NCBI GenBank assembly: GCA_015062745.1
Contig: SUUB01000005.1
Span: forward strand, 60,928-100,561
Length of the DNA stretch: 39,634 bases
Direction of reading: 5' to 3'
Source: Actinomycetaceae bacterium
GTDB lineage: Bacteria; Actinomycetota; Actinomycetes; Actinomycetales; Actinomycetaceae
Under the pieces are notes generated by a model that saw only the letters and a program-made list of their open reading frames with translations, was not told where the DNA came from and did no database searches. Positions 4,210 to 11,355 of this stretch are shown one piece after another. Position 1 is the first letter of the stretch. The number at the start of each line of letters is the position of its first letter. The translations under genes and the position numbers were made by a program.

Positions 4210-5336
4210 TGCGCATAGGTATCGCCTGCCCCTACTCGTGGGACGTTCCCGGAGGCGTCCAGTTCCATATTCGCGACCTGGCGGCGGAACTGATTCGGCG
4301 CGGCCACGATGTGCGGGTGATAGCGCCGGCGGAGGATACCGATGCGCTTCCCGACTTCGCCAGTTCGACGGGATCGGCCATCGCCATCCCGTACAACGGT
4401 TCGGTGGCCCGCCTTTCCTTCGGCCCGCGCGTCAACCGTGCCGTGCGCGCCTGGTTGCGTGAGGGGGACTTTGATGTCCTGCATGTTCATGAGCCCTTTG
4501 TGCCCTCGGTCTCCATGTTGGCGCTTATGAGTGCCAGTTGTCCCGTGGTCTCCACCTTCCACACGGCGATGGATCGTTCGCGGGCGCTGGAGATCGGAAC
4601 GCCGATGCTGCGGCCATTCCTGGAGAAGATCCAGGCCCGTATCGCGGTATCGCAGGAGGCGCGTCGGACCGCGGTGCAGTACTTGGGTGGTGACGCGTAC
4701 GTGATTCCAAACGGCGTCTACACCACGGATTTCGAGAAGGCATCGCGTGACGAACGGTTCACCGGCGAGATCGGCCGCCCCACGCTCGGCTTTCTCGGGA
4801 GGCTTGACGAGCCGCGCAAGGGCCTGCCTGTGGTCGCCGGGGCGTTTCACGCCATTCGGGAGCAATTCCCGGGTGTGCGCCTGTTCGTGGCGGGCCGAGG
4901 GGATATTGACGAGGCCCGCGCCGCCTTCGGTGCGGATGCCGAAGCGGTGGAGTTCCTCGGTGGAATCTCCGATGAGGACAAAGCCGCCATGCTCTCCAGC
5001 GTTGACATCTACCTCGCCCCGAACACCGGCGGTGAATCATTCGGCATCATTCTTATCGAGGCGATGAGCGCGGGAAGCTTCGTCGTCGCCTCCGATATTC
5101 CTGCCTTCCGGGCGGTGCTGGGAGGTGGAAACTTCGGCGATCAGTTCGCCAATGGCGACTCTGCGGCGCTGGCCGCAACCGTCGCGCAGGCGCTGCGAGA
5201 GCCGGAGCGACGGGCTGCAACGGTGCAGCGCGCTCGCGCCGAAGCACATCGCTATGACTGGTCAACCGTTGCATCGCAGGTATATGCGGTATACGAAACG
5301 GCAGTACGCACCGCGAGGTTGGAGGTTGACGAGTGA
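4209..5336 (+). CDS. pimA: Phosphatidylinositol mannosyltransferase PimA
   Basis: GT4-family glycosyltransferase that moves mannose from GDP-mannose to phosphatidylinositol, giving PIM1. The N-terminus MRIGIACPYSWDVPGGVQFH is the typical PimA opening, with its Gly-rich donor/acceptor loop. The C-terminal half has NTGGESFGIILIEAMSAG, the E-x7-E nucleotide-sugar motif of GT4 enzymes. ATG-ATG stands at 4206 and 4209; I chose 4209 (375 aa) because of its better spacing from the GGAAGGA element, but 4206 (ATGA overlap) is nearly as good. It is coupled to the genes on both sides by overlapping stop/start codons. Confidence 0.93.
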   Translation: MRIGIACPYSWDVPGGVQFHIRDLAAELIRRGHDVRVIAPAEDTDALPDFASSTGSAIAIPYNGSVARLSFGPRVNRAVRAWLREGDFDVLHVHEPFVPSVSMLALMSASCPVVSTFHTAMDRSRALEIGTPMLRPFLEKIQARIAVSQEARRTAVQYLGGDAYVIPNGVYTTDFEKASRDERFTGEIGRPTLGFLGRLDEPRKGLPVVAGAFHAIREQFPGVRLFVAGRGDIDEARAAFGADAEAVEFLGGISDEDKAAMLSSVDIYLAPNTGGESFGIILIEAMSAGSFVVASDIPAFRAVLGGGNFGDQFANGDSAALAATVAQALREPERRAATVQRARAEAHRYDWSTVASQVYAVYETAVRTARLEVDE

Positions 5337-5896
5337 GCGCTCCATGGTGGATTGCCCTGGTCCTTGTTCTGTTCGTTTTATCCATGGTTGCCGTTGTGGT
5401 CGCCCGTCGTATTGATCGCCTGCATCGCCAAGTGCTCCGCTCACGCCGTGCGCTTGAGTATGCCCTCACTGCCCGTGCACAGTACGCGCACGATTTCGCC
5501 GTGAGTGGTGCGCTCGATATTGCGGGAGCAGTCCTCCTTGCAGATGCGGCGGACACCTGCCTGCGGGAAGGCATGCTACCGATTGTCGACGACGGTCTGG
5601 ACGCGCTTCTTCCTGTGACCCCACCTGAGTCCCCCGGAGACCGGCGCTCGCTCGAATCAGACTTGTCTCGTACACTACGGCTAACGGTTGACGAGATGGA
5701 CCCGGAGGAGAAGACCGGTGCCGGAAGCCTCGCGGAGAGGTTGGAGCGGGCGCGCCTCGACGTGCGCATGACCCGCTCCTTCCATAACTCCCATGTGGAC
5801 CAGATCCGGCGCCTACGCCGTAATCCACTGGCTCGGTTACTCCATCTGGCCGGGAATGCCCCGCTTCCCGTCACCGTTGACATTGACGACGAATAA
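5333..5896 (+). CDS. Small membrane-anchored protein, LemA-like in layout
   Basis: 187 aa of uncertain function. A hydrophobic N-terminal helix (about residues 5-24, WWIALVLVLFVLSMVAVVVA) would anchor it in the membrane with a short N-terminus. The remainder is charged and helix-rich, starting RRIDRLHRQVLRSRRALE, a pattern reminiscent of LemA-type helical proteins, though I cannot establish homology. GTG at 5333 overlaps the pimA stop (GTGA), so it is probably made with the PIM enzymes. Genes of this shape often follow pimA in actinobacteria, which suggests envelope work, but no catalytic motif is visible. Confidence 0.8.
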   Translation: MSAPWWIALVLVLFVLSMVAVVVARRIDRLHRQVLRSRRALEYALTARAQYAHDFAVSGALDIAGAVLLADAADTCLREGMLPIVDDGLDALLPVTPPESPGDRRSLESDLSRTLRLTVDEMDPEEKTGAGSLAERLERARLDVRMTRSFHNSHVDQIRRLRRNPLARLLHLAGNAPLPVTVDIDDE

Positions 5897-5930
5897 GCGA
5901 CGACAGCACGCAACAGATGATGAGTAACAC

Positions 5931-7373
5931 ATGAGTAGTTTCGACCCGTACCCGGCCCGGCCCGGTAACAACAATCAGAGCGGCCCGCAGGGGGCGGCGC
6001 CTGTGCAAGGCGGATACTACACACCGCCAGCAGGTTCCGGGTTCGTCGCGGGAAACTACGGCGTCGGCTACGCGCCCCCGGCGTTTGCCGCAGGAACGGG
6101 TCTGGCCCTGGATGGCACGCGGCCTCCGAGCAATATCGGCGAGATCAGCCAAAAGGAGCCGCGCTGGCGCGCCCCGCGCGGGAACAAGATAGCGCTGCAT
6201 ATTGGTGTCGGAATCATTGTGTGCGCCGCGTTGGCCGGTTTCGTCTACCTGTTGCCGGCCCTGAACCAGGCGGGAGCAACACGCACTGTGACATTCGCAG
6301 TGATGGCGCTTATGCCTGTTGTGGTGATATCCGCCATTGTCGCCTGGATCGACCGCTGGGAACGTGAACCGGTGGGCATCTACGTAGCTGCCTTCGCCTG
6401 GGGCGCGGGCATTTCTACGGCGTTGACAATCGTGTTCTCGAACACCGGAACCTACTTCAACTGGCTGTACCGCGCCGGCGATACACCACAGAGCTTTGAT
6501 GAGAGAGCTGCGGTATTCGGCGCTCCCCTGATGGAGGAGGCCTGCAAGGGGCTCGGCGTAGTCTTAATGGTGTTGATCTTCCACAAGCACGTTAACGGCG
6601 CGGTGGATGGTCTCGTGTACGGAATGCTGGTTGGGCTGGGCTTCGCTTTTACTGAGAACATTGTCTACTTCGCCTCCGCGTACACCGAGGCTCTGAACTC
6701 CGGAGCCTCCACCAGCGAAGCATTTGGTTACGTCGAGGAAGTCTTCCAGATACGTGCCATTCTGAACCCCTTCGTTCACCCGATAGCGACGGGCTTCACC
6801 GGGTTATCCCTCGGTATAGGGACAACGATGCGATTCCGCCCCTTCGTCATTCCTGTCACTCTTGTCGGGTACGCCATTGCGGTGCTGCTGCACGGGCTGC
6901 ACAACTACTCGGCGGTACTCAACATGTCGGATGGGGAGAGACTGTTGTACCAAATCCCAATCTATGCGGTGACTCTCACAGTGATCCTCATTGCGCGCAG
7001 TTCCGAACGACGACATGTGCTAGCTGCGTTGCGCGAGTACGAGGGCGCCGGGTGGTTCACTCCCAACGAACTCTCGATGATCCAGAGCGTCTCCAATCGG
7101 CGGGCCGCTACCGAATGGGCTGCGGTGGCTGTTGGACGCAGTGGCGGGAACCCGGCACAGGGCCGCGATGCGATGAAGCTGTTCCAAAAGGAGATGATCC
7201 AACTCGGCTATGCCAGGTCCGGCCAACTGCGACGCGGCACTGCAAACAGGCTGGAGAATCGTGTGGAGGAAGAAAACCGGTTGAGCCTTCTCAGCGATCT
7301 GCGCCTAGTGTTCACCGGTCAAACGAGACAGGTTGCCGCTGGAGCCTACACAGGGACATTCGGGTATGCGTGA
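5931..7373 (+). CDS. prsW: PrsW-family intramembrane protease
   Basis: Multi-pass membrane protein of 480 aa. The PrsW signatures are all present: LMEEACKGLG (the EExxK motif, about residue 200), FAFTENIVYF (FxxxEN) and NPFVHPIATGF (histidine motif). PrsW proteases cut within or next to the membrane and in Bacillus act on the anti-sigma factor RsiW; the substrate here is unknown. The first 75 residues are a cytosolic Pro/Gly/Tyr/Asn-rich, probably disordered segment. A soluble C-terminal region of about 120 residues follows the last membrane helix. It starts 34 bases after the previous gene with only a weak ribosome binding site, so it may share that operon. Its 3' end overlaps the Nudix gene. 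Confidence 0.9.
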   Translation: MSSFDPYPARPGNNNQSGPQGAAPVQGGYYTPPAGSGFVAGNYGVGYAPPAFAAGTGLALDGTRPPSNIGEISQKEPRWRAPRGNKIALHIGVGIIVCAALAGFVYLLPALNQAGATRTVTFAVMALMPVVVISAIVAWIDRWEREPVGIYVAAFAWGAGISTALTIVFSNTGTYFNWLYRAGDTPQSFDERAAVFGAPLMEEACKGLGVVLMVLIFHKHVNGAVDGLVYGMLVGLGFAFTENIVYFASAYTEALNSGASTSEAFGYVEEVFQIRAILNPFVHPIATGFTGLSLGIGTTMRFRPFVIPVTLVGYAIAVLLHGLHNYSAVLNMSDGERLLYQIPIYAVTLTVILIARSSERRHVLAALREYEGAGWFTPNELSMIQSVSNRRAATEWAAVAVGRSGGNPAQGRDAMKLFQKEMIQLGYARSGQLRRGTANRLENRVEEENRLSLLSDLRLVFTGQTRQVAAGAYTGTFGYA

Positions 7374-8073
7374 GGTTGAGCAGGCGCATGCACCCGACGC
7401 CTGCACGGGTAGACAGTCCCGCACGGAGTGGATTCCGGACGCGGACGGGATCCCAAGCCGGGAGGCGGCTCGCGTGCTTGTTATCGACCCGGATAACCGC
7501 GTGTTACTCATTCGTGGCCACGACATTGACCGGCCCGACTTCTGGTGGTGGTTCACTGTTGGCGGTGGTATTCAAGGTCAGTCACGGCGAGAGGGGGCGG
7601 TGCGCGAGCTGTACGAGGAGACTGGTCTGCGTGCGCAGGCGCAGCGTCTCATCGGTCCTGTGCTCTACCGTCGCGCAGTCCTTAAATTTACGCGCGGTGT
7701 GCAGCGGCAGAACGAGTACTTCTTTCTGCTGCGCGTTACCGCTGCCGAGGCGAGTAGCGTCGTCGCCGGAAAGGAACTCAGCGCACTGGAACAGGAGCTT
7801 CTCGACGAATACCGCTGGTGGGATGCCAGCGCGATTGAAGAGGCCGAGCGAGCTGGAGAGATCTTCTATCCGGTCGGCTTAGGCGCATTGGTACAGGGCT
7901 GGATCAACGGCTGGGATGGGACGTGCGATGTTATCGACGAGAATGACACCGCCGAGGAGCATGGGGAGGAGAAGGCCGAGACGGCCGACGAGGCGGTAGC
8001 CCCTTCGCGCCGGAAAACGCCGCTGCGCAAACCTCCACCCGTGCAAAGGCGGACCCCGACAGGGCCGAACTGA
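7366..8073 (+). CDS. Nudix hydrolase with an altered Nudix box
   Basis: Predicted nucleoside-diphosphate-X hydrolase, 235 aa from ATG 7366, which overlaps prsW by 8 bases and has AGGGA upstream; a longer start inside prsW is possible but less likely. The Nudix region is GGGIQGQSRREGAVRE followed by LYEETGL. The metal-binding REUxEExGU part is intact, but the first conserved glutamate (the E of G-x5-E) is Gln and the loop is one residue shorter than usual. The last 55 or so residues are a charged tail rich in Glu, Lys, Arg and Pro. Substrate unknown. A Nudix gene between pimA and yebC is common in actinobacteria. Confidence 0.88.
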   Translation: MREVEQAHAPDACTGRQSRTEWIPDADGIPSREAARVLVIDPDNRVLLIRGHDIDRPDFWWWFTVGGGIQGQSRREGAVRELYEETGLRAQAQRLIGPVLYRRAVLKFTRGVQRQNEYFFLLRVTAAEASSVVAGKELSALEQELLDEYRWWDASAIEEAERAGEIFYPVGLGALVQGWINGWDGTCDVIDENDTAEEHGEEKAETADEAVAPSRRKTPLRKPPPVQRRTPTGPN

Positions 8074-8118
8074 CACGGTGCATATGGCACGGTGAAATGT
8101 ACGGTGCCGTGGACTCGT

Positions 8119-8124
8119 TAGAAT
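8119..8124 (+). promoter_or_regulatory. Candidate -10 element for yebC
   Basis: TAGAAT at 8119-8124 is a good -10 match about 35 bases before the yebC start, but no convincing -35 lies 16-18 bases upstream. Confidence 0.35.
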
Positions 8125-8160
8125 GGGTAGTGGAGAAGTCATCAAGTCCAAGGAGAATCT

Positions 8161-8919
8161 GTGTCCGGACACTCGAAGTGGGCAACCACGAAGCACAAGA
8201 AGGCTGCCATTGATGCAAAGCGCGGCAAGCTTTTCGCTCGGCTCATCAAGAACATCGAGGTAGCTGCCCGCACCGGCGGTGGTGATCCTGCCGGTAACCC
8301 GACGCTCTACGATGCGATTCAGAAAGCGAAGAAGAACTCGGTTCCCGCCGACAACATCGATCGCGCCGTCAAGCGTGGATCGGGTGAGGGCAGCGACGCG
8401 GTGAATTACGAGTCGATCACCTACGAAGGCTACGCATCGGGTGGAGTCGCCGTTCTCATCGAATGCCTCACCGACAATCGGAACCGCGCGGCATCGGAGG
8501 TGCGAACCGCTCTGACACGCAACGGTGGACAGCTTGCCGATCCCGGATCGGTGTCGTACTTATTCACCCGCAAGGGCGTTGTTGAGGTTGCCAAGGCCGA
8601 CTCACTGTCGGAGGACGACATCCTGACGGCCGTCCTGGATGCCGGGGCAGAGGACGTCGTTGACGAGGGTGAAAGCTATTCGGTGGAGAGCGAGCCCAAC
8701 GACGTCGTCGCGGTGCGTATGGCCTTGCAGGACGCCGGTATCGACTACAACTCTGCCGAGGTGCAGTTCGTGCCATCGATGAAGGTGGAGGTCGACAAGG
8801 AAGGGGCGCAAAAGGTGTTGCGCGTACTTGACGCACTCGATGAGTGCGACGACGTGCAGAACGTGTACTCCAATGTCGATATCTCGGACGAGATTCTGGC
8901 CGAACTGGATGCGGAGTAG
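8161..8919 (+). CDS. yebC: YebC/PmpR-family protein
   Basis: 252 aa protein of the YebC/TACO1 family. Members act as transcription regulators (PmpR type) or help ribosomes through difficult sequences; the sequence does not decide between these. The N-terminus [20 protein letters not shown] is the family hallmark, and the length is standard. GTG at 8161 is preceded by AAGGAG at good spacing. It lies directly upstream of ruvCAB, the usual actinobacterial order. In Mycobacterium and relatives pdxS-pdxT often sit between the pimA region and yebC; they are absent here. Confidence 0.95.
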
Positions 8920-8964
8920 GGGCTGCTGATACTGCGCGGCATCGCGTATAAGGCCACGACAGTG

Positions 8965-8988
8965 AGGGCTGGCACATGTGCCAGCCCT
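8965..8988 (+). terminator. 24-bp perfect palindrome after yebC
   Basis: AGGGCTGGCACA and its exact reverse complement lie back to back with no loop bases, 45 bases after yebC. An RNA hairpin of about 10 bp could end yebC transcription, but only two T's follow. A protein-binding site is the alternative. Confidence 0.45.
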
Positions 8989-9025
8989 TCGCCGTGCCTC
9001 CTACCGACTTCCGGGTGGGCGACGA

Positions 9026-9031
9026 TAGGTT
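9026..9031 (+). promoter_or_regulatory. Candidate -10 for a leaderless ruvC mRNA
   Basis: TAGGTT ends 6 bases before the ruvC ATG at 9038, which would place the transcription start at or next to the start codon. No Shine-Dalgarno sequence is visible. Confidence 0.5.
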
Positions 9032-9037
9032 AAAGAC

Positions 9038-9676
9038 ATGAGGATTCTCGGTGTGGACCCGGGCCTGACGCGCTGTGGCGTCGGAGTTGTCGACTGCGAC
9101 AGCAGTAGACGCGTCAGCCTGGTCGATATGCGGGTGGTGCGCTCCCATCCGGAGATGGCACCCCATAAGCGCCTCCTCATCATTGCGCAGGGGATCGATG
9201 AGGCATTGGAAACCTTCCACCCCGATGTTGTCGCGGTGGAGCGTGTGTTTTCGCAGGCCAATGTTCGTTCGGTCACCGGGACGGCACAGGTTGCGGGCAT
9301 CGTGATGCTGGCCGCCGCACGAGCTAATCTCCCCATCGGACTGCATAGCCCTTCGGAGGTGAAGGCTGCCGTGTCGGGGAATGGTCGCGCCGAGAAACGG
9401 CAGGTGCAGCTCATGGTGCAACGAATTCTTGGTATGAACGAGCTTCCACGTCCCGCCGACGCTGCCGACGCGCTCGCGATCGCCATCACGCAGGCATGGC
9501 GCGGGGGAGCGGCATCACTGGATGCAGAGCCGGATCGCATGCAACATGGCGGTGCCGGCACACTGCCACGGGCAAGTGGCGGTGACCTCACACCCGCGCA
9601 GCGCATGTGGGCCGGTGCCGAACGGATGTCACGGCGTCACGGGGCTGTTGCGCCAAGTGCGCGGCGCGGCTCCTAA
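9038..9676 (+). CDS. ruvC: Holliday junction resolvase RuvC
   Basis: Endonuclease that resolves Holliday junctions with the RuvAB branch-migration motor. The acidic catalytic set is visible: Asp7 in ILGVDPGLTRCG, Glu in VAVERVFSQAN, and the paired Asp of ADAADALAIA. The product is 212 aa; the catalytic domain ends near residue 165 and a tail of about 45 residues follows. ATG 9038 is the only sensible start. Instead of a ribosome binding site a -10-like TAGGTT stands 6 bases before it, so translation is probably leaderless. It is followed by ruvA and ruvB on the same strand. Confidence 0.96.
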   Translation: MRILGVDPGLTRCGVGVVDCDSSRRVSLVDMRVVRSHPEMAPHKRLLIIAQGIDEALETFHPDVVAVERVFSQANVRSVTGTAQVAGIVMLAAARANLPIGLHSPSEVKAAVSGNGRAEKRQVQLMVQRILGMNELPRPADAADALAIAITQAWRGGAASLDAEPDRMQHGGAGTLPRASGGDLTPAQRMWAGAERMSRRHGAVAPSARRGS

Positions 9677-9702
9677 CGGGTGTTGCCACGGCCGTGGCAT
9701 GT

Positions 9703-9708
9703 TAAGCT
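9703..9708 (+). promoter_or_regulatory. Candidate ruvA -10 element
   Basis: TAAGCT at 9703-9708 would start transcription near 9715, inside the LexA-like box. The -35 is unclear: TTGCCA at 9683-9688 leaves only 14 bases of spacer. Confidence 0.45.
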
Positions 9709-9711
9709 ACT

Positions 9712-9727
9712 TCAAACGGATGTTCGA
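9712..9727 (+). promoter_or_regulatory. LexA (SOS) box upstream of ruvA
   Basis: TCAAACGGATGTTCGA matches the actinobacterial SOS box TCGAAC-N4-GTTCGA at 11 of 12 specified bases. The box covers the expected start of transcription from TAAGCT (9703-9708) and lies 11 bases before the ruvA start codon. Repression of ruvAB by LexA is the known arrangement in many bacteria. Confidence 0.7.
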
Positions 9728-9738
9728 TAGGGGGGCGG

Positions 9739-10326
9739 ATGATCGCAACGGTACGTGGGGAAGTGCTTGCCGTGAAGGCGACCGTCGCCATTATCGAGGT
9801 GGGCGGCATCGGCTTGACCATCCGTGCCACGGCGGCAACGTTGGCGAAACTGCGCGAAGGGGTCGGGGCCTTCTTACATACAACCTTGGTGGTGCGTGAG
9901 GACTCCCTGACGTTGTACGGCTTCGATGAGGCGGACGAGCGAGACACCTTCGAGGTGTTGCAGGGCGTTTCTGGCGTCGGCCCACGTACAGCCCTCGCCA
10001 TATTGAACGTGCACACCCCGGACGCCCTCCGGCGTGCGGTCGGTGCACGCGATGCGAAGGCGTTGCAACGAGTGCCGGGGATCGGCGCGAAGGGTGCGCA
10101 GCGCCTGCTGCTCGAACTGGATAAGAAACTTGGACCTGCGCGCGGAGCAACGACGGCGGCGGGCAGCGCGGCGGACGGCGCGGATGTCATTGAGGCACTG
10201 ACCGGCCTCGGATGGCCCGAAAGGGACGCCTATGCGGCTTTCGATGCCGTTCGCCAGGAGCAGGCCGGAGCCGACACGGCCACGTTGCTGCGCGCCTGCC
10301 TACAATTCCTTGGAGCGAGGAAATAG
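9739..10326 (+). CDS. ruvA: Holliday junction DNA helicase subunit RuvA
   Basis: Binds the four-way junction and loads RuvB. 195 aa, normal length. The N-terminus MIATVRGEVL opens the OB-fold domain. Two helix-hairpin-helix motifs are clear in the middle: GVSGVGPRTALAIL and RVPGIGAKGAQRLLLEL. The C-terminal domain III, which contacts RuvB, follows after a short Ala/Gly linker. ATG 9739 is preceded by a G-rich ribosome binding site (AGGGGGGCGG). It has its own candidate promoter with a LexA-like box and is followed by ruvB after 3 bases. Confidence 0.97.
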   Translation: MIATVRGEVLAVKATVAIIEVGGIGLTIRATAATLAKLREGVGAFLHTTLVVREDSLTLYGFDEADERDTFEVLQGVSGVGPRTALAILNVHTPDALRRAVGARDAKALQRVPGIGAKGAQRLLLELDKKLGPARGATTAAGSAADGADVIEALTGLGWPERDAYAAFDAVRQEQAGADTATLLRACLQFLGARK

Positions 10327-10329
10327 TCA

Positions 10330-11355
10330 ATGCTGGAAGACGATGGGTTGGTCAATCCACAAGCTGCTGACTCTGAACGGGCCGCCGAAGCTGCACTACG
10401 TCCCCACCAGCTTTCCGAATTTGTTGGGCAGGAGAAGGTGCGCACGCAGTTGTCCTTGGTGTTGGAGGCGGCTATCGGTCGGGGGAAAACACCTGATCAC
10501 GTTCTGCTGGCCGGTCCGCCCGGCTTGGGGAAGACGACGCTTGCCATGATTATCGCCAATGAGGCCGGTGGCGCGCTGCGCCTAACATCGGGCCCGGCGA
10601 TACAACATACGGGAGACTTAGCCGCCGTGCTCTCCTCCATGCAGGAGGGCGACGTCCTCTTCATCGATGAGATACACAGACTGGCCCGCACGGCAGAAGA
10701 GATGCTCTACCTGGCCATGGAGGACTTTCGTGTTGACGTGATGGTGGGGAAGGGGCCCGGTGCTACCTCAATTCCGTTACCACTGCCGCCGTTCACGGTT
10801 GTGGGGGCGACGACGCGGGCGGGCCTCCTGCCTGCTCCGCTGCGTGACCGTTTCGGTTTTACCGGATACCTGGAGTATTACGCGGAGCGGGATTTGAGCA
10901 CTATTGTGCGGCGAAACGCGGCGAAGCTGAACGTGGAGCTCACCGCAGACGCGGCGCGGGAGATCGCTTCCCGTTCGCGTGGTACGCCGCGTATCGCAAA
11001 TAGACTGCTGCGGCGTGTGCAGGATTGGGCGCAGGTTCGCGGGACGGGCATTCTCGATCTGGAGGCGGCGCGTGCGGCGCTTGACATGTTCGAGGTGGAT
11101 AAGCGTGGACTGGACCGTTTGGATCGTGCCGTGCTGGAGGCCTTGTGTAAGCGCTTCGGAGGAGGGCCGGTAGGGCTGACCACCTTGGCGGTGTCGGTTG
11201 GAGAAGAGCCTGAAACCGTCGAGACAGTTGCGGAGCCCTACCTGGTGCGGGAGGGTTTTCTCGTACGAACACCGCGGGGGCGGGCGGCGACGGCGCTGGC
11301 ATGGAGTCATCTCGGGCTAACCCCACCGCCGCAGAACGACACGCTGTTCGGATAG
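10330..11355 (+). CDS. ruvB: Holliday junction branch migration ATPase RuvB
   Basis: AAA+ motor of the RuvAB complex, 341 aa. Walker A is GPPGLGKTT (about residues 61-69) and Walker B is LFIDEIHR (about residue 111). The sensor segment [10 protein letters not shown], the arginine finger region (LRDRFGFTG) and the C-terminal winged helix follow in the normal order. ATG 10330 has GAGG upstream, within the end of ruvA. The last codons (LFG-stop) are part of a 22-bp imperfect tandem duplication that continues beyond the stop codon. Confidence 0.97.

Follow-up and report, generated by a model that had tools for sequence, protein, structure and literature searches.

The window considered here is a 39,634-nucleotide stretch from the 2.53-Mb genome, in 93 contigs, of a member of the Actinomycetaceae. 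It carries yebC, ruvC, ruvA and ruvB in that order and in one shared direction, together with several candidate control elements:

8161-8919, + strand: yebC, upstream of ruvC (NF001030, 348 bits)
9026-9031, + strand: -10-like TAGGTT, a possible leaderless ruvC promoter, 6 nt before the ruvC ATG and identical in a same-genus relative (L019)
9038-9676, + strand: ruvC, upstream of ruvA and without a LexA box (TIGR00228, 114 bits)
9703-9708, + strand: -10-like TAAGCT of the predicted ruvA promoter; TANNNT hexamers cluster near the box in the 76 loci with a box before ruvA (ruvA-type loci)
9712-9727, + strand: LexA (SOS) box TCAAACGGATGTTCGA before ruvA, one mismatch to TCGAAC-N4-GTTCGA, kept in relatives
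9729-9738, + strand: purine-rich putative ribosome-binding stretch aggggggcgg before ruvA, recognised from the sequence
9739-10326, + strand: ruvA (NCBIfam TIGR00084, 185 bits against an 85-bit cut-off)
10330-11355, + strand: ruvB, behind ruvA with a 3-bp spacing (NF000868, 484 bits)

Given this layout, ruvB is presumably part of one transcript with ruvA. The gap between ruvC and ruvA measures 62 bp. No terminator was found between these two genes, so read-through from ruvC could add ruvAB transcript that starts outside the putative LexA-controlled promoter. A search of the window against Rfam gave no match.

The box before ruvA differs from TCGAAC-N4-GTTCGA only in the change of G3 to A, which confirms the near-consensus LexA box reported in a preliminary description of this DNA, and it is the sole site in the window with at most one mismatch. 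When up to three mismatches are allowed, the window contains 24 matches, which is no excess over the chance expectation of 20.5 +/- 4.5. Genome-wide, sites with at most one mismatch number 15, versus 8 for a reversed-pattern control, and this control rate corresponds to ~2e-4 such sites expected in the ruvC-ruvA gap. The box begins 27 bp before the ruvA ATG, 3 nt after TAAGCT. From the position of this hexamer, ruvA transcription is predicted to start near 9715, inside the box; the geometry thus backs the earlier proposal that the box lies over the likely ruvA start. A strict sigma-70 promoter scan returned nothing passing. The element is very likely a binding site for LexA on the ruvAB promoter.

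Single copies of lexA and recA are present in the genome. Its LexA contains the LexA DNA-binding domain (PF01726, E 1.1e-19), matches the NCBIfam equivalog TIGR00498 (206 bits), and has as its nearest solved relative 6a2q, which we take to be LexA of Mycobacterium tuberculosis; the LexA homolog on which the preliminary description depended is therefore present. Five of the 15 genome-wide sites with at most one mismatch are promoter-placed and precede imuA', uvrA, lexA, recA and ruvA, all of which are textbook SOS genes, and the other ten lie within gene-like reading frames. The same motif accordingly occurs before lexA and recA, where that description had proposed to look for it. The imuA' box is perfect (TCGAACAAAAGTTCGA), and the lexA box (TCAAACAAGCGTTCGA) has the TCAAAC type of mismatch that is seen at ruvA, which marks the deviation in the ruvA box as an accepted variant. 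A cluster of several LexA-box-like sites lies before this lexA gene (L004, 1480-1560). In a same-genus relative, recA reads in three frames (L266, G029:C1:1731606-1732686), reflecting frameshift or assembly errors.

No LexA box with up to three mismatches occurs from 4404 to 9712, and hence there is none at yebC or ruvC. Across 90 kb upstream of ruvC in the 76 ruvA-type loci, just two weak matches were detected at up to two mismatches, so the lack of a ruvC box, originally remarked for this window, holds throughout the clade. The companion suggestion, that ruvC has its own leaderless promoter, fares less uniformly. It is plausible here, in the same-genus relative, and in the Georgenia/Cellulomonas group, where a similar hexamer is found at the matching ruvC position, but it does not extend to most other family members, in which ruvC directly adjoins yebC and is probably read together with it.

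Within the family, a box is present at the matching place before ruvA in ~46 of 60 loci. The 30 nearest ruvC-ruvA junctions mostly show the same succession of a -10-like TANNNT, zero to several nucleotides, the box, a ribosome-binding site and ruvA, and over the 76 ruvA-type loci the TANNNT hexamers are concentrated at distances of 0 to 7 nt ahead of the box. A majority of the 14 box-less family loci come from genomes with a lexA gene. The LexA domain was not found in three genomes (G063, G040 and G006) that also have no box, but these represent one genus and therefore one loss, not three. We considered loss of LexA as the cause for all box-less relatives and rejected it, since the other box-less genomes tested have lexA. 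In two genomes ruvC does not adjoin ruvA, lying on a different contig or 1.8 kb away (G020, G048), and the box before ruvA is kept despite this displacement, with one mismatch in G048 and three, a weak match, in G020. At a single locus (L063, from G026) the ruvC and ruvA genes overlap and a LexA box with one mismatch nevertheless stands 28 bp ahead of ruvA, apparently within the last part of ruvC.

To place this arrangement in a wider context, we drew on a comparison set of about 200 relatives, and box placement was counted in 179 actinobacterial loci with ruvC upstream of ruvA, a box being defined by at most two mismatches. It is found before ruvA in 76 loci, before ruvC in 55 (ruvC-type loci), before neither in 48 and before both in 0, whereas the reversed-pattern control at the same threshold yields 0/179 at ruvA and 2/179 at ruvC. 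In 75 of the 76 loci with a ruvA box, ruvC and ruvA are separated by 15 bp or more; in 50 of the 55 that have their box before ruvC, the two genes overlap or nearly do so. In a maximum-likelihood phylogeny of RuvC plus RuvA (162 loci), which is a tree of the genes themselves and not of species, placement changes once, compared with 37-46 changes when labels are shuffled, and the branch dividing ruvA-type from ruvC-type has moderate support (SH-aLRT near 90). Outgroup classes of the phylum (20 loci) have a ruvC box with up to two mismatches in 12 cases and a ruvA box in none, which makes the ruvC-type ancestral and the ruvA-type derived. The branch that these sequences place in the derived state consists of Actinomycetaceae, relatives of Cellulomonas and Promicromonospora, Georgenia and Kineococcus. 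Apparently, the operator moved from ruvC to ruvA once in one actinobacterial branch, and the overlap between ruvC and ruvA opened up together with this move.

The two halves of the operator have not been conserved equally. In ruvA-type loci the right half-site is largely intact and the left half-site is altered, with A at position 4 in 27 of 76 loci, versus all 55 ruvC-type loci. When 30 genomes are set side by side, the left half TCGAAC is found in 28 recA boxes and in 0 ruvA boxes; left halves of the ruvA boxes in these genomes include CCGAAC twice and TGGAAC once. The alteration at ruvA of a half-site that is intact at recA suggests that the ruvA operator is the weaker of the two for one and the same LexA. 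The same left-half variants recur in some ruvC boxes of the outgroup, so ruvA-type loci are not alone in this weakening.

These observations lead us to propose, with considerable confidence, that 9712-9727 is the LexA operator of the ruvAB promoter, that ruvC is outside direct LexA control, and that this layout was derived in one branch. What is established about the SOS system leads us to infer LexA binding, the start site and induction: LexA at the box would cover the predicted ruvA start and repress ruvAB, and upon DNA damage RecA filaments would trigger LexA self-cleavage and so derepress ruvAB. ruvC would be expressed from its own promoter or from that of yebC, beyond direct LexA control.

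Could the box instead be a chance match to the LexA motif? The reversed control does yield eight sites with at most one mismatch in this genome, but the tiny number expected in the gap, the retention of the box in most family loci and the near-empty control counts at ruvA and ruvC go against this idea, which is refuted by conservation of the box and which we regard as having practically no chance of being correct. It is also very improbable that the box is a relic, or that it mainly blocks read-through from ruvC and does not serve a separate ruvA promoter. The failed strict promoter scan would fit this explanation, as would the left half-site, which deviates from consensus almost throughout the ruvA-type loci but is kept in the recA boxes of those genomes. 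However, many genera have conserved the right half and the inner AC/GT bases, as well as the location of the box behind a -10 hexamer, and the box persists before ruvA where ruvC is located elsewhere and read-through from it is absent.

A more serious alternative, although still a doubtful one, accepts the operator before ruvA but holds that ruvC is damage-induced too, through the LexA-independent activator PafBC acting at its own promoter, so that both halves of the system respond by different routes. RuvA and RuvC belong to the mycobacterial PafBC regulon (PMC8223512), two neighbouring genes in this genome encode WYL-domain proteins of the size of PafB and PafC, and several Streptomyces ruvC promoters contain a perfect TTGTCRGTG-N8-TANNNT. 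At the corresponding place before ruvC in the window is TTCCGGGTG-N8-TAGGTT, with three mismatches to this motif, and across 26 ruvA-type loci the 9-mer shows a mild enrichment at position -29 (permutation fraction 0.004, not corrected for relatedness). On the other hand, the same-genus relative has the motif with four mismatches, matches across the genome show no excess (191 versus 201 in a reversed control), and in most family members the corresponding place is coding sequence of yebC. A PafBC-type element at this ruvC is possible but weak. The situation is different in Streptomyces and relatives (L149, L167, L168, L182, L185, L188, L192, L195 and L196), where a perfect PafBC/RecA-NDp motif precedes ruvC and a LexA box is lacking or weak; in these bacteria PafBC may replace LexA control of ruvC.

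The LexA of E. coli is a proteobacterial LexA with another motif. A LexA operator that serves ruvAB and not ruvC is of a kind known from Escherichia coli and some Vibrio, found here in a new lineage and with an unusually clean single switch. In E. coli, ruvC is likewise split from ruvAB and SOS control extends only to ruvAB (PMC3323433), but the origin is separate, since the switch described here arose inside Actinomycetota. Independent LexA sites before ruvAB also occur in Vibrionaceae ruvCAB, and in some Vibrio species gene insertions were followed by loss of the site of ruvC (PMC3323433); however, sites before both are present in some Vibrionaceae species, whereas none of our loci has both. 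Closer relatives share the motif class and the order ruvC-ruvA-ruvB, and RuvA, RuvB and RuvC of Mycobacterium tuberculosis are described as SOS-box controlled (PMC8151990) and an SOS box precedes ruvC in Streptomyces venezuelae (PMC9380542). These species differ in having the box before ruvC and overlapping ruvC and ruvA genes, as do most ruvC-type loci sampled. Our literature search, in which subscription journals were thinly covered and which is therefore weak evidence of novelty, turned up no earlier description of ruvA-type loci from Actinomycetaceae or relatives of Cellulomonas, or of a switch within Actinomycetota.

Because RuvC and RuvAB act together on Holliday junctions, split control of their genes is informative. 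We lean towards the view that a single ancestral event left only ruvAB under the SOS control that had covered ruvC-ruvAB, that selection has kept this state in parallel with the separate gammaproteobacterial change, and that the ruvA operator was tuned by weakening of one half (TCAAAC/TCGTAC), compared with the intact left half at recA. If this is true, it would suggest a general need under damage for more RuvAB, and not for more RuvC resolvase. Repeated loss of SOS control for ruvC, but not for ruvAB, supports a separate role of RuvAB at stalled forks, an argument already made for Vibrio (PMC3323433). The switch in Actinomycetota offers an independent case, and its clear before and after states in many culturable genera make the consequence testable by comparing sister lineages.

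Inverted repeats also occur around ruvC. A perfect 16-bp palindrome, TGCCACGGCCGTGGCA, at 9684-9699 in the interval between ruvC and the ruvA promoter was evaluated as a terminator or second operator and rejected because it is missing from the same-genus relative L019. In the yebC/ruvC intergenic region, a perfect 24-bp inverted repeat, AGGGCTGGCACATGTGCCAGCCCT, at 8965-8988 resembles a terminator stem without a T run, and L019 has this repeat too. Two further loci (L028 and L048) have an inverted repeat upstream of ruvC, either GTGTCGC ... GCGACAC or TGTCGCAGGCCC ... GGGCCTGCGACA; in each, the right arm overlaps the -10 of the putative leaderless ruvC promoter.
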